DNA of 32,157 nucleotides from a virus. The position numbers and the translations under genes were made by a program. The stretch is from the IMG/VR virus record IMGVR_UViG_3300011115_000400, positions 1 to 32,157 of that record; one strand, 5' to 3'. Shown here piece after piece: positions 1 to 32,157 of this stretch; position 1 is the first letter of the stretch, and the number at the start of each line of letters is the position of its first letter. The notes beneath the pieces were generated by a model. The model did not search any database and was not told where the DNA came from. It was given only the letters and a program-made list of their open reading frames with translations.

Positions 1-127
1 AATAGGCGGTTACTCTTCAACTATGCCGGCAAAGAAAGGTGCTGACAGCATAAAAGCATCAATCAACTTACTGCAAAACTTTACATTGAACGTTACATCA
101 CGTTCGACTAATATAATTCGCGAATTG
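1..127. repeat. Terminal overlap copy 1 (identical to 32031-32157)
   Basis: The first 127 bases are identical to the last 127. The overlap lies inside terL, and the reading frame continues without a break when the end is joined to the start. A length of exactly 127 is a common maximum k-mer in short-read assemblers, so this is most simply the overlap of a circular contig and not a biological terminal repeat. The genome is therefore circular or circularly permuted, about 32,030 bp. Confidence 0.95.
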
Positions 128-1075
128 AGGAATTACCGTTGGGATGAAGATAAAGACGGCAAGCAATTAAATACACCTATTGACAAGTTTAATCACTGTT
201 TTACTGGGAGTACTTTAATAACAACTGACAAAGGTTTAGTGCCTATTAAATATATTCAAGTAGGTGATATGGTTTTAACTACAAAAGGATATAAAAAAGT
301 AGTAAAGAAATTTAATAATGGAATAAAAAAAGTGTATAAATATTCGATGCTATTCGATACGTTTTCGGTAAATTTGTTGTGTACAAATAATCACAAAATA
401 AACGCAAACAATTTATGGAAAGAAGTATCGCAACTGAAAGAGAAAGACAATCTTATAGTACACAAACTTTCAATGGCAAAAATTACAAATTGTACACAAA
501 TGAAAGGTACTACTCAAGAGGTAACAAAAGATTGCACGTTGCAGTTTGGGAGTTTACAAATGGCAAAGTTCCTAAAGGATTTCACATACACCACATTGAC
601 GAAAACCCACATAATAATTCTATTGATAACCTTGAGTGTATTGAAATGTGTAAGCACTTGTCTAAACACGGCAAAAAAAGGGTTACAGAAAATAAAGAGT
701 GGTTTAATGATTTTCACGCAAAGGGGATTGAAGCAGCTCCATTATGGCACAAAAGCGAAGAGGGAATTGAATGGCACAGGCAACACGCAATCAGATGTTC
801 TTTTGGGAAAAACGATTTGCCAATTAAAGAATGTGATTTCTGTAAAAAAGAATATAAGCCAAAAGTATATCATCAAAGATTTTGCCACGCAAACTGTAAA
901 GCTAAACAAAATAGAAGAGAGCGAAATATACGAAACCAGAGTCTATGATTTAATGGTTGAATCGCAGCACGAATATTTTGCCAATGGCATCCTTGTACAT
1001 AATTGTATTGATGCAATTAGGTATGTAGCACTAAACAAAATAAACAAGGTTACCGGCATTTACACTATCGGTTAA
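1..1075 (+). CDS. terL: Terminase large subunit, C-terminal part with in-frame intein
   Basis: This is the continuation of the terL gene that starts at 31129 and crosses the contig junction. Joined, the precursor is about 658 residues. Bases 1-196 encode the end of the N-extein (nuclease domain), 197-1003 a 269-residue intein, and 1004-1075 the C-extein CIDAIRYVALNKI and on. Removing the intein joins DKFNH to CIDAIRYV, which matches the conserved C-terminal nuclease region of TerL (an NHxxDAxRY-type motif), so the spliced protein of about 389 residues would be a normal TerL. TerL is the packaging ATPase and nuclease that loads DNA into the prohead. A start at 23 would be an internal Met and not the real start. 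The insertion sits next to a catalytic motif, as is usual for inteins. Confidence 0.93.
   Translation, partial: IGGYSSTMPAKKGADSIKASINLLQNFTLNVTSRSTNIIRELRNYRWDEDKDGKQLNTPIDKFNHCFTGSTLITTDKGLVPIKYIQVGDMVLTTKGYKKVVKKFNNGIKKVYKYSMLFDTFSVNLLCTNNHKINANNLWKEVSQLKEKDNLIVHKLSMAKITNCTQMKGTTQEVTKDCTLQFGSLQMAKFLKDFTYTTLTKTHIIILLITLSVLKCVSTCLNTAKKGLQKIKSGLMIFTQRGLKQLHYGTKAKRELNGTGNTQSDVLLGKTICQLKNVISVKKNISQKYIIKDFATQTVKLNKIEESEIYETRVYDLMVESQHEYFANGILVHNCIDAIRYVALNKINKVTGIYTIG
369..376 (+). promoter_or_regulatory. Possible promoter for the nested HNH gene (TAAATTTG)
   Basis: TAAATTTG matches the Bacteroidetes -7 consensus TAnnTTTG at all fixed positions and lies about 38 bases before the HNH start codon. 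No clear -33 TTG stands at the right distance. The motif also encodes part of block B of the intein. In AT-rich DNA such matches arise by chance, so this is only a candidate for independent expression of the endonuclease. Confidence 0.25.
415..948 (+). CDS. HNH homing endonuclease nested out of frame in the terL intein
   Basis: A 177-residue protein in a different frame from terL, wholly inside the intein. Residues 19-36 (FNGKNYKLYTNERYYSRG) and 55-81 form an HNH_3-like core: GFHIHHIDENPHNNSIDNLE, with His59/His60, Asn68 and His81. A helix-rich middle holds KSEEGIEWHRQHA. A C-terminal zinc-finger-like segment has Cys140, Cys143, Cys157 and Cys161 (C-x2-C-x13-C-x3-C). This is a typical full-length phage HNH endonuclease, so it is not a remnant. 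ATG 415 is the only upstream ATG in frame. The family homology starts at about residue 19, so the first 18 residues may be an extension read from intein DNA. The gene ends inside the coding region of intein block F. Its likely role is homing of the intein into intein-free terL. Confidence 0.88.
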   Translation: MERSIATERERQSYSTQTFNGKNYKLYTNERYYSRGNKRLHVAVWEFTNGKVPKGFHIHHIDENPHNNSIDNLECIEMCKHLSKHGKKRVTENKEWFNDFHAKGIEAAPLWHKSEEGIEWHRQHAIRCSFGKNDLPIKECDFCKKEYKPKVYHQRFCHANCKAKQNRRERNIRNQSL

Positions 1076-20088: not shown

Positions 20089-20207
20089 CTTGACGATATA
20101 AATTGGGTTTTTAATTGTTATCTTTTACATTTGTAATTCTATTGGGCTGTGGTTGTGGGCTGACGTAATTCTATTGCCACACCTACACAAAGCCCTGTAC
20201 GTTAGGC
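20007..20207 (-). repeat. attC-like element 3 (between dcm and the second methyltransferase)
   Basis: On the minus strand it starts GCCTAAC (a perfect match to the RYYYAAC consensus of attC ends), whose TAA is the stop codon of dcm. It ends with GTTGTGTGC. The arms 20177-20195 and 20019-20037 pair over 19 positions with two mismatches. ACGTCAGCC follows the left arm, CGTCCAGCC precedes the right arm, and TACAAATGT (20135-20127) lies in the loop. The start codon of the next gene lies inside the element. At 201 bases it is longer than most integron attC sites. Confidence 0.65.
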
Positions 20208-21104
20208 GAAAGCACTACCATTCGTTCCATTTACGAGCTGACTTCTCAATTTGATGTGGTTTTTAATACACTCAAACAAATAGAAACCAACAAAAGGAAC
20301 TATGGCATTTCCTAAGCCTTTAAGTCTGTCCATCCTTTCGGGTATCCCATCACCAGCTCCACAAAGTAAGGGTTCGGCAATAGTGTTTTGTCCTTCACTT
20401 CCCCATTGGTGTTGTCTAAATACCATTTCTTTAGTGTCCACCCTAAATTCACTCCGTATTTTACTCCACTCTTCCGAGTTCTTATACCTTTCCACATCAA
20501 TAAAGGCGTTTCCCATCCTATCTGAAAAGACACCGTGTGCGTTGGGGTAGGCAATAACGTATATTCGTTCTCTACGATGTCTAAATCCAAATGTTGTAGC
20601 TGATAAACATTGCCATTCCGCATCATACCCGATTTCGGAAAGGTCGCATAACACTCGTTCAAATCCTCGAATAGTAAGGTTTGGGCTGTTTTCAATGATG
20701 ATGTATTCAGGTCTAACTTCCCCCACAATGCGGTACATTTCGCCCCATAAACCTGAACGGTGTCCTTTAATCCCTTTTGCTTTGGTGTTTGCCCCCGAAA
20801 TATCTTGGCAAGGGAAGCCACCACTAATGATGTTGACTTTTTCGGGGTTTCTAAGTTGTCTAATATCTTCATATTGTTTTGTATTTTCAAATCTGTATTT
20901 TAATAATTGCCTGTTCCATTCGTTAATATCACAGTTCCATTTTGTTGGTATTCCTGCCCATTCTGCACCCAATTCAAACCCACCTATTCCACTAAATAAA
21001 CTGCCGTGAGATATTCCTAAACTACCCATGCCATCGCCTAACATCGCATTGGCAATATTGGGGCTGACGTTCTTAATTTGAGCTTCTGTATTTTCTACTA
21101 TCAT
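20202..21104 (-). CDS. dcm: DNA (cytosine-5)-methyltransferase
   Basis: A 300-residue C5-cytosine methyltransferase with all main motifs in order: SLFSGIGGFELG (35-46, motif I), GGFPCQDIS (95-103, motif IV, nucleophile Cys99), IIENSPNL (136-143, motif VI, Ser in place of the common Val), RHRRERIYVIAYP (175-187, motif VIII) and GLGNAIVP (263-270, motif X). The target recognition region (about 190-255) is short. The first about 23 residues are encoded by the attC-like element at 21036-21170. ATG at codon 21 or 26 is an alternative start. G+C is clearly above its neighbours (29 of 60 in 20701-20760), which suggests recent acquisition. The stop codon is part of the next attC-like element. The gene contains a second ORF in another frame (20312-20890). 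Confidence 0.93.
   Translation of the reverse strand: MIVENTEAQIKNVSPNIANAMLGDGMGSLGISHGSLFSGIGGFELGAEWAGIPTKWNCDINEWNRQLLKYRFENTKQYEDIRQLRNPEKVNIISGGFPCQDISGANTKAKGIKGHRSGLWGEMYRIVGEVRPEYIIIENSPNLTIRGFERVLCDLSEIGYDAEWQCLSATTFGFRHRRERIYVIAYPNAHGVFSDRMGNAFIDVERYKNSEEWSKIRSEFRVDTKEMVFRQHQWGSEGQNTIAEPLLCGAGDGIPERMDRLKGLGNAIVPFVGFYLFECIKNHIKLRSQLVNGTNGSAFA
20312..20890 (-). CDS. Overlapping ORF nested in dcm, phage methyltransferase-associated protein
   Basis: A 192-residue ORF on the same strand as dcm but in the +1 frame, wholly inside it. It is not ordinary shadow sequence. The parts TSSLKTAQTLLFEDL (63-77), FPKSGMMRNGNVYQL (84-98), LLPTPTHT (112-119) and LPNPYFVELVMGYPKGWTDL (171-190) match a phage protein pattern known to me as S-S-x-K-T...SGMxxNGxxYxL...LPTPT...FVExxMGFPxGWTDL, found next to or fused with phage C5 methyltransferases. 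It starts at ATG 20890 or 20872. SGMMRNG is read from the DNA of Dcm GYDAEWQ, and the GWTDL end from that of Dcm RMDRLKG. Function unknown. A spurious but conserved out-of-frame product remains possible. Confidence 0.6.
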   Translation of the reverse strand: MKIQNNMKILDNLETPKKSTSLVVASLAKIFRGQTPKQKGLKDTVQVYGAKCTALWGKLDLNTSSLKTAQTLLFEDLNECYATFPKSGMMRNGNVYQLQHLDLDIVENEYTLLPTPTHTVSFQIGWETPLLMWKGIRTRKSGVKYGVNLGWTLKKWYLDNTNGEVKDKTLLPNPYFVELVMGYPKGWTDLKA

Positions 21105-31128: not shown

Positions 31129-32157
31129 ATGTTTATCCGTACAAGTGCTATCAACAAGATACTTAAACTTGATAAATTCGTTCGAGGTGTGCAGGGTGGC
31201 ACAAGTGCCGGAAAAACATACGCAATACTTCCTATACTTATAGACATTGCAGCAAAAAATAAGCAAACAGACATTTCAGTTGTCAGCGAGTCAATCCCAC
31301 ATCTAAAACGTGGGTGTATTAAAGACTTCAAAAAGATAATGGTTGATACTGGCAGATGGGTTGATAGTCGTTGGAACGCATCAGATTTTAAATACAATTT
31401 TGCCAACGGTTCACAAATTGAGTTTTTTAGTGCCGATAGTGATGCTAAATTAAGAGGTGCAAGGCGTGACTGGCTTTATATGAATGAGTGCAATAATATT
31501 GTTTTCAATGCTTACAATGAGTTAGCAATGAGAACAAAGAATGGCATCTTTCTCGATTGGAATCCTACTAACTCATTTTGGTTTCACACCGAATTACAAC
31601 AAGACAGTAATGTTGATTTTATAACTATCAATTACTTAGACAATGAGGCTTGTCCTGATAGTGCAAAAGAATTTATCATAAACGCTAAACGCAAAGCAGA
31701 AACTTCTACATTTTGGGCGAACTGGTATAAGGTTTATGGATTAGGTGAGATTGGCAGCCTACAAGGTACTATCTTCGATTTTAAGCAATGTGATAAGATA
31801 CCAAAAGAAGCAAGTTTATTAGCTTATGGCATTGACTTCGGTTTCACTAATGACCCGACTGCAATGTTAGCAGTTTATAAATGCGACAAAGAACTTTACA
31901 TTGATGAATTAATTTATCAAACACAACTAACAAACCAACAAATAGTACAAAGGTTTAACGAGTTAGGTATTAGAAAGGACTTGCAAATAATTGCAGATAG
32001 TGCCGAGCCTAAGTCAATAGCTGAATTAAGAATAGGCGGTTACTCTTCAACTATGCCGGCAAAGAAAGGTGCTGACAGCATAAAAGCATCAATCAACTTA
32101 CTGCAAAACTTTACATTGAACGTTACATCACGTTCGACTAATATAATTCGCGAATTG
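31129..32157 (+). CDS. terL: Terminase large subunit, N-terminal part (continues at base 1)
   Basis: The gene begins at ATG 31129, three bases after the lipoprotein stop. The ATPase has Walker A GVQGGTSAGKTYA (about residues 20-32) and Walker B DWLYMNECNN. The nuclease half starts at YGIDFGFTNDPTAM, where Asp is the first metal ligand, and continues with IIADSAEPKSIAEL. It runs off the window end in frame. The last 127 bases equal bases 1-127, so the protein continues there through the intein to 1075. With the intein removed the length is about 389 residues. Confidence 0.95.
   Translation, partial: MFIRTSAINKILKLDKFVRGVQGGTSAGKTYAILPILIDIAAKNKQTDISVVSESIPHLKRGCIKDFKKIMVDTGRWVDSRWNASDFKYNFANGSQIEFFSADSDAKLRGARRDWLYMNECNNIVFNAYNELAMRTKNGIFLDWNPTNSFWFHTELQQDSNVDFITINYLDNEACPDSAKEFIINAKRKAETSTFWANWYKVYGLGEIGSLQGTIFDFKQCDKIPKEASLLAYGIDFGFTNDPTAMLAVYKCDKELYIDELIYQTQLTNQQIVQRFNELGIRKDLQIIADSAEPKSIAELRIGGYSSTMPAKKGADSIKASINLLQNFTLNVTSRSTNIIREL
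32031..32157. repeat. Terminal overlap copy 2 (identical to 1-127)
   Basis: Second copy of the end overlap. It should be removed when the genome is closed into a circle of about 32,030 bp, and terL should then be annotated across the junction. Confidence 0.95.

Follow-up and report, generated by a model that had tools for sequence, protein, structure and literature searches.

We analysed a virus genome record from IMG/VR (IMGVR_UViG_3300011115_000400, positions 1-32,157; "the window" hereafter means this whole stretch of 32,157 nucleotides) and focused on its terminase gene, terL, which is interrupted by an intein at 197-1003. This intein is very probably a mobile element whose homing endonuclease, an HNH protein, is encoded as a separate, fully overlapping gene rather than as an in-frame domain. 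Architecture, conservation, selection on both products, avoidance of stop codons, empty sites and horizontal transfer were all computed here. Inteins are usually described as one polypeptide serving both splicing and homing; here, two proteins appear to be encrypted on the same DNA, and this is seen at many loci and in phages that infect many different hosts.

Under this reading, ribosomes reading through terL would produce a precursor in which a complete Hint domain is interrupted by a 138-residue meaningless spacer, and the Hint domain would excise itself and join the terL halves. Other ribosomes would initiate at a conserved ATG (415) and translate the -1 frame, yielding a free-standing HNH protein of 177 amino acids with its own stop. 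This protein would cut intein-free terL at a conserved nuclease motif (NH/xIDAIRY, the slash marking the insertion point), and repair would copy the whole intein in. Because the HNH gene is out of frame, it can keep its own stop without truncating terL or splitting the intein.

A complete intein sharing its DNA with a complete HNH gene

No stop interrupts the terL frame from 2 to 1075. Within it, the splicing residues of the intein are C1 (197-199), T63 and H66 of the block B TxxH motif (383-394), N269 (1001-1003) and a Cys at position +1, and blocks F and G end in VYDLMVESQHEYFANGILVHN. In the family alignment C1, T63, H66 and N269 are invariant or nearly so, and a Cys or Ser at +1 is also kept. 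Matches were found to Pfam Intein_splicing (E 1.4e-11, above the gathering score) and to NCBIfam intein_Cterm (above its cut-off). The Hint fold was recovered in an AlphaFold model with a Foldseek match to gp41-1 (template modelling score 0.80 on target length), which is the nearest solved intein by sequence (E 5e-18) as well as by fold. With these splicing residues, the Hint fold and a stop-free, in-frame insertion in the conserved terL motif, the element at 197-1003 is, on sequence and model, a class-1-type intein that is predicted to splice. The original prediction, made from the sequence of the window alone, had described a terL intein here with all splicing blocks and a frame open for 807 bases, and this description is borne out.

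It had also placed a complete 177-residue HNH gene inside the intein in a different frame, and we recovered this gene at 415-948 in the -1 frame (HNH_3, E 7e-14; Table 1). The protein carries the core residues and zinc finger of the HNH_3 family and matches phrog_15471 HNH endonuclease (E 1e-24). In a profile search, the best solved relative of the HNH core was I-HmuI (E 0.0014). Both ends of the HNH gene, about 20 codons each, overlap genuine Hint sequence; this overlap, like the wide distribution of the layout, had been missed.

Between the two confidently modelled Hint parts, the in-frame spacer showed no homology of its own and low confidence in the AlphaFold model (the alignments used for structure prediction left out two, A2, and three, A3, rows from annotated phage records). 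Its low predicted local distance difference test (pLDDT) values, together with variability that falls on HNH third codon positions, agree with the earlier suggestion that the in-frame middle is the HNH gene read in an alternative frame. That suggestion included a non-homologous linker of about 150 residues tolerated by the intein. The segment does behave as a tolerated spacer, while its extent is refined to residues 93-230 (138 aa), with the HNH ends overlapping the Hint domain. Hint domains may tolerate some 140 arbitrary residues at the endonuclease position, a property useful for intein engineering.

Distribution of the layout

Searches of viral contigs with the window proteins alone found no relatives; relatives were retrieved by scans with an alignment of the first phage relatives, which gave 80 viral and 43 genome loci. 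In about 75 of the top 80 viral contigs, an out-of-frame HNH gene is flanked on both sides by Hint blocks in the terL open reading frame (ORF), and the same arrangement occurs in several bacterial and archaeal contigs (Patescibacteria, Nitrospiraceae, Thermoplasmatales and Nitrosotalea). Altogether, more than 100 distinct phage or prophage loci, of bacteria and archaea, carry this layout. The -1 offset of the window recurs in four GenBank or isolate phages: human gut MT838676, Tetrasphaera TJE1, Acinetobacter Highwayman and Rhodobacteraceae LS06. In these five sequences, the terL frame has no stops across the HNH open frame, versus 9-30 in the third frame. The deposited records of TJE1, Highwayman and LS06 show terL alone, and the nested gene was missed. 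The opposite frame offset is used by four distinct loci (L078-L081).

Further support comes from an independent search in which the C-terminal splicing block of the intein was the only query, so that the search was blind to the middle. HNH lay at the -1 offset in 48 of its 52 distinct inteins, the other four were mini-inteins, and none of the 52 had HNH in frame. A chance HH occurred in the intein frame at two loci, both of which also have the -1 HNH gene.

Two observations concern related architectures. Mini-inteins of 133 aa, with the same site and the same C-terminal block and without HNH, occur in the terL genes of L237, L264, L266 and L272. In L081 (297-3719) and L112 (2-3781), the ORF with the out-of-frame HNH intein also contains an in-frame LAGLIDADG domain; it is apparently part of a second, canonical intein in the same gene, which in L081 would lie near the Walker A region. 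These two loci thereby contrast both arrangements within one ORF.

Selection on the two reading frames

Avoidance of stops in the intein frame was pronounced. When synonymous codons of the window HNH gene were shuffled, a mean of 2.7 intein-frame stops arose and none of 300 shuffles was stop-free; the third frame holds 26 stops. Across 79 distinct -1 loci, shuffled in the same way within each HNH gene, no intein-frame stop was observed against 238 expected, and the four opposite-offset loci likewise had none (37 expected). Control relatives, comprising 16 split, free or unassigned loci, had 107 stops against 114 expected.

Ratios of nonsynonymous to synonymous substitution rates (dN/dS) were approximately 0.1-0.3 in the HNH frame and 0.1-0.25 in the Hint flanks, indicating that both are under purifying selection. 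An intein-frame dN/dS near 1 was not taken to demonstrate neutrality, since constraint on HNH biases this value, and we instead compared dS of Hint with that of HNH. Median dS was 0.757 for HNH versus 0.734 for Hint, and a synonymous change in HNH nearly always alters an intein-frame residue; the similarity of the two values therefore suggests that the amino acids of the spacer are free. The 138-residue middle thus appears to be constrained essentially only against stops.

Codon-position constraint, proposed earlier as a check on the layout, gave a consistent picture, with the variable position switching frame along the intein. Among 40 gapless homologues, the most variable position is intein position 3 in Hint-N and intein position 2, which is HNH position 3, in the middle. 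Residues 231-250 have low variability at all codon positions, after which intein position 3 is again the most variable, and this short stretch is truly dual coding. The original prediction had held that stops in either frame of homologues would count against it. Essentially all relatives retain an intact HNH frame, and intein-frame stops mark split inteins or free HNH genes beside an intact terL, not decayed copies. The system offers a natural experiment on overlapping genes, with one frame under functional constraint and the other selected only against stops.

Mobility and empty sites

The closest empty site was found in L130, whose terL shares 98% protein identity with that of the window over 343 residues (about 90% DNA identity). 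Its site is intact and reads NH/GIDAIRY, where the window has NH/C...HN/CIDAIRY. Three other intein-bearing loci (L185, L193 and L176) share 91-93% DNA identity with empty-site sisters (L178, L179, L183 and L184), and in these comparisons a short differing tract lies directly 3' of the insertion, which looks like co-conversion. Similar HNH genes also occur in terL genes that are only about 30% identical; between L012 and L032, HNH shares 80% DNA identity and terL 31% protein identity. Empty sites and similar HNH-inteins in divergent terL genes indicate that the element is mobile, presumably through homing cleavage.

The HNH protein might instead aid DNA packaging beside the terminase and be kept for the benefit of the phage rather than for homing. 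Related free HNH genes lie directly downstream of intact terL genes, and HK97 gp74, a terL-adjacent HNH protein, reportedly acts in packaging. However, phages with about 90% identical terL DNA have neither the intein nor the nested gene, the histories of terL and HNH disagree, and the nearest solved protein by profile is a homing nuclease, I-HmuI. We consider a packaging role improbable.

Expression of the nested gene

An ATG was found in nearly every nested HNH gene, mostly at a fixed distance from the LHR motif, 39 codons ahead of it. This ATG is built, in the main group, from a codon ending in A and the intein Trp codon TGG. An HNH-frame stop lies upstream of it, at a median of four codons. 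The second HNH codon begins with A at only one of 79 loci, itself a locus in which no ATG was found; with A in that place, TGA would arise in the intein frame. Strong Shine-Dalgarno (SD) sequences (GGAGGT, or AAGGAGG in L085) lie 7-9 nt upstream of the ATG in L064, L065, L073, L075, L076, L085 and L086. Canonical X_XXY_YYZ heptamers occurred in the only usable interval at 13 of 76 loci, which is about the background rate, and none was found in the window. Given the conserved ATG, the upstream stop, the SD sequences of some lineages and the background frequency of slippery heptamers, internal initiation at ATG415 is our best inference for how HNH would be made.

One subgroup has a variant HNH protein: the proteins of L064, L065, L073, L074, L075, L076 and L086 have an extra N-terminal region of CxxC type, and most of these loci have a strong SD inside the intein coding sequence.

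Programmed -1 ribosomal frameshifting would yield a terL-HintN-HNH fusion rather than a separate protein. The -1 offset of nearly all members and the A-rich stretches around the junction are compatible with it. Against this stand the background frequency of slippery heptamers and their absence from the window, the stop so close upstream of the ATG, the opposite offset at four loci, the lineages with an SD before the ATG, and the split and free forms, which require an independent HNH start. Frameshifting therefore seems quite improbable.

Two further explanations have practically no likelihood. In one, an in-frame HNH intein was broken by indels or by an assembly error, leaving a decaying pseudogene that is open by chance; a single sequence alone could be read so, but more than 100 distinct loci conserve the layout, the HNH frame is under purifying selection, no in-frame HNH relatives were found, and an assembly slip is contradicted by recurrence of the same offset in four other isolate or GenBank phages and dozens of independent contigs. 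In the other, the element is a self-splicing RNA intron with an HNH ORF, its intein features being secondary. Phage group I introns typically carry HNH genes, yet the frame is open, the Hint catalytic residues are invariant and the Hint fold is confident. A group I or II intron was rejected, as 1-1200 gave no Rfam match even at E 1.

Several points weigh against a mobile intein with a separately encoded endonuclease. We infer, rather than observe, the splicing, the internal initiation and translation of HNH, and the cleavage of empty sites. The window ATG has no SD and only an A-rich leader, which would be expected for Bacteroidota-like hosts, although the host is not established. Codon-model dN/dS is approximate where genes overlap. 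The link between HNH and I-HmuI comes from the profile search alone; Foldseek with the HNH model gave weak matches only and no confident PDB match, so no fold assignment was built on it. Finally, the zero-stop count is partly circular because the open frame helped to define the nested loci. Evidence free of this circularity comes from the controls, from the C-terminal block search and from the -1 offset that divergent loci have in common.

Split and free-standing relatives

At nine terL intein loci, mostly of Bacillota, the Hint-N ORF ends, an overlapping HNH gene comes next and a Hint-C ORF follows. These loci (L093, L097, L098, L100, L101, L102, L103, L105 and L108) are candidate new naturally split inteins. 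A free HNH gene lies beside an intact terL at six loci. The window ORF is continuous from 2 to 1075 and is not divided into separate N and C ORFs as in a split intein. On the HNH tree, the nested, split and free states need nine changes in all; their direction is not fixed, and several are forced by well-supported branches.

On balance, we lean towards viewing these elements as a widespread, previously undescribed intein class, in which the splicing domain and homing endonuclease would be separate proteins from the same DNA in two frames, with an overlap held by selection against stops alone, and which would interconvert with split inteins and free-standing HNH genes. If true, this interconversion suggests how nucleases come to invade inteins and how split inteins originate or become fused again. 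Mini-inteins, large inteins and split inteins could plausibly be connected through this layout as an intermediate.

Comparison with known systems

In canonical bifunctional inteins (LAGLIDADG or HNH), the endonuclease is in frame and is released with the intein. The window element resembles them in that a splicing domain and a homing endonuclease travel together and are inserted at a conserved motif. It differs in that its HNH gene, read in the -1 frame, has a start and a stop of its own. The gene for I-HmuI lies in a group I intron, whereas the carrier of the window HNH gene is an intein, which the HNH gene overlaps. Split inteins such as gp41-1, reportedly described as products of 'fractured genes' by Dassa et al. 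in 2009, provide the closest Hint domain by sequence and fold, and nine related terL loci are likewise split, with HNH between the halves. In contrast, the window intein is contiguous (cis), and its nuclease is of the HNH_3 family and overlaps both halves.

Among the literature compared, the closest published case is the ShiLan domain of phage DNA methylases, where HNH is likewise out of frame; it has no detectable splicing domain, and its authors proposed that it remains part of the methylase (Arsenault, Gosselin, Gogarten 2025, PMC11855218). In both systems the insertion leaves the host gene free of added stops and holds a complete HNH gene in a third frame, and both have a sporadic, homing-like distribution. 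In the terL element, however, a complete intein surrounds the HNH gene and shares DNA with it, the host gene is a terminase, and the layout is found across many phage lineages, archaeal contigs among them. The original prediction knew of no established class with this layout. ShiLan is a partial precedent; for an out-of-frame endonuclease inside a splicing intein, no report was found in a limited literature search, which excluded the Gosselin et al. 2025 preprint on actinobacteriophage inteins of 'non-canonical architecture' (bioRxiv 10.1101/2025.01.02.630785), a title that hints at unusual endonuclease or frame layouts, so that an earlier description is possible.

Genome context

The first 127 bases of the record are repeated at its end (1-127 = 32031-32157). 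Owing to this terminal direct repeat, terL runs off the record end and resumes at its start, and the record is probably a complete, circularly assembled phage genome. Features are listed in Table 1.

Table 1. Features of the terL locus, its intein and the nested HNH gene in the window.
Feature	Position	Strand	Evidence
terL N-terminal part (N-extein)	31129..32157	+	ORF list; terminal repeat; TIGR01547 terminase, E 9e-22 (below its cut-off); resumes at 2..196
terL N-extein, RNaseH-like nuclease domain up to insertion point ...FNH/	2..196	+	Terminase_3C, residues 4-66 of the 2..1072 frame, E 6e-6
Predicted intein, 269 aa, C1...HN269	197..1003	+	Intein_splicing; intein_Cterm; splicing residues; family alignment
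Hint N part, residues 1-92, blocks A and B, TNNH at 383-394	197..472	+	AlphaFold pLDDT ~94-98; matches gp41-1 intein 6qaz
In-frame spacer, residues 93-230, HNH gene read in intein frame	473..886	+	pLDDT mostly 34-66; absent from 133-aa mini-inteins; variability on HNH third codon positions
Hint C part, residues 231-269, blocks F and G	887..1003	+	intein_Cterm above cut-off; pLDDT 94-97
terL C-extein, Cys+1 then IDAIRY... to terL stop	1004..1075	+	ORF list; translation; empty-site relatives read NH/[GS]IDAIRY
HNH endonuclease gene nested in the intein, 177 aa, read in the -1 frame of terL from its own ATG to its own stop	415..948	+	ORF list; HNH_3; phrog_15471; AlphaFold mean pLDDT 92; start codon conserved in family
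HNH_3 core, HNH residues 39-76; H41, H59, H60, N68, N72 invariant	529..642	+	Pfam HNH_3, E 7e-14; invariant columns
C-terminal Cys4 zinc finger of HNH; C140, C143, C157, C161 invariant	832..897	+	Invariant alignment columns
Dual-coding edge, conserved both as the last helix of HNH and as strands of Hint-C	887..945	+	Diversity low at all three codon positions (0.22, 0.26, 0.33; 40 gapless homologues)

Elsewhere in the genome, a cytosine-methyltransferase-like gene of 300 aa (20202-21104, minus strand; phrog_363, E 4e-60) wholly contains a second ORF of 192 aa on the same strand in another frame (20312-20890), which is similar to phrog_1008 'DNA methyltransferase' (E 6e-16). The pair appears to be a second conserved overlapping gene in this genome: the same nested methyltransferases, in the same relative frame, occur in Bacteroides phage BU730P1, Bacteroides phage BF1-TP2 and a human gut phage (L289-L291).
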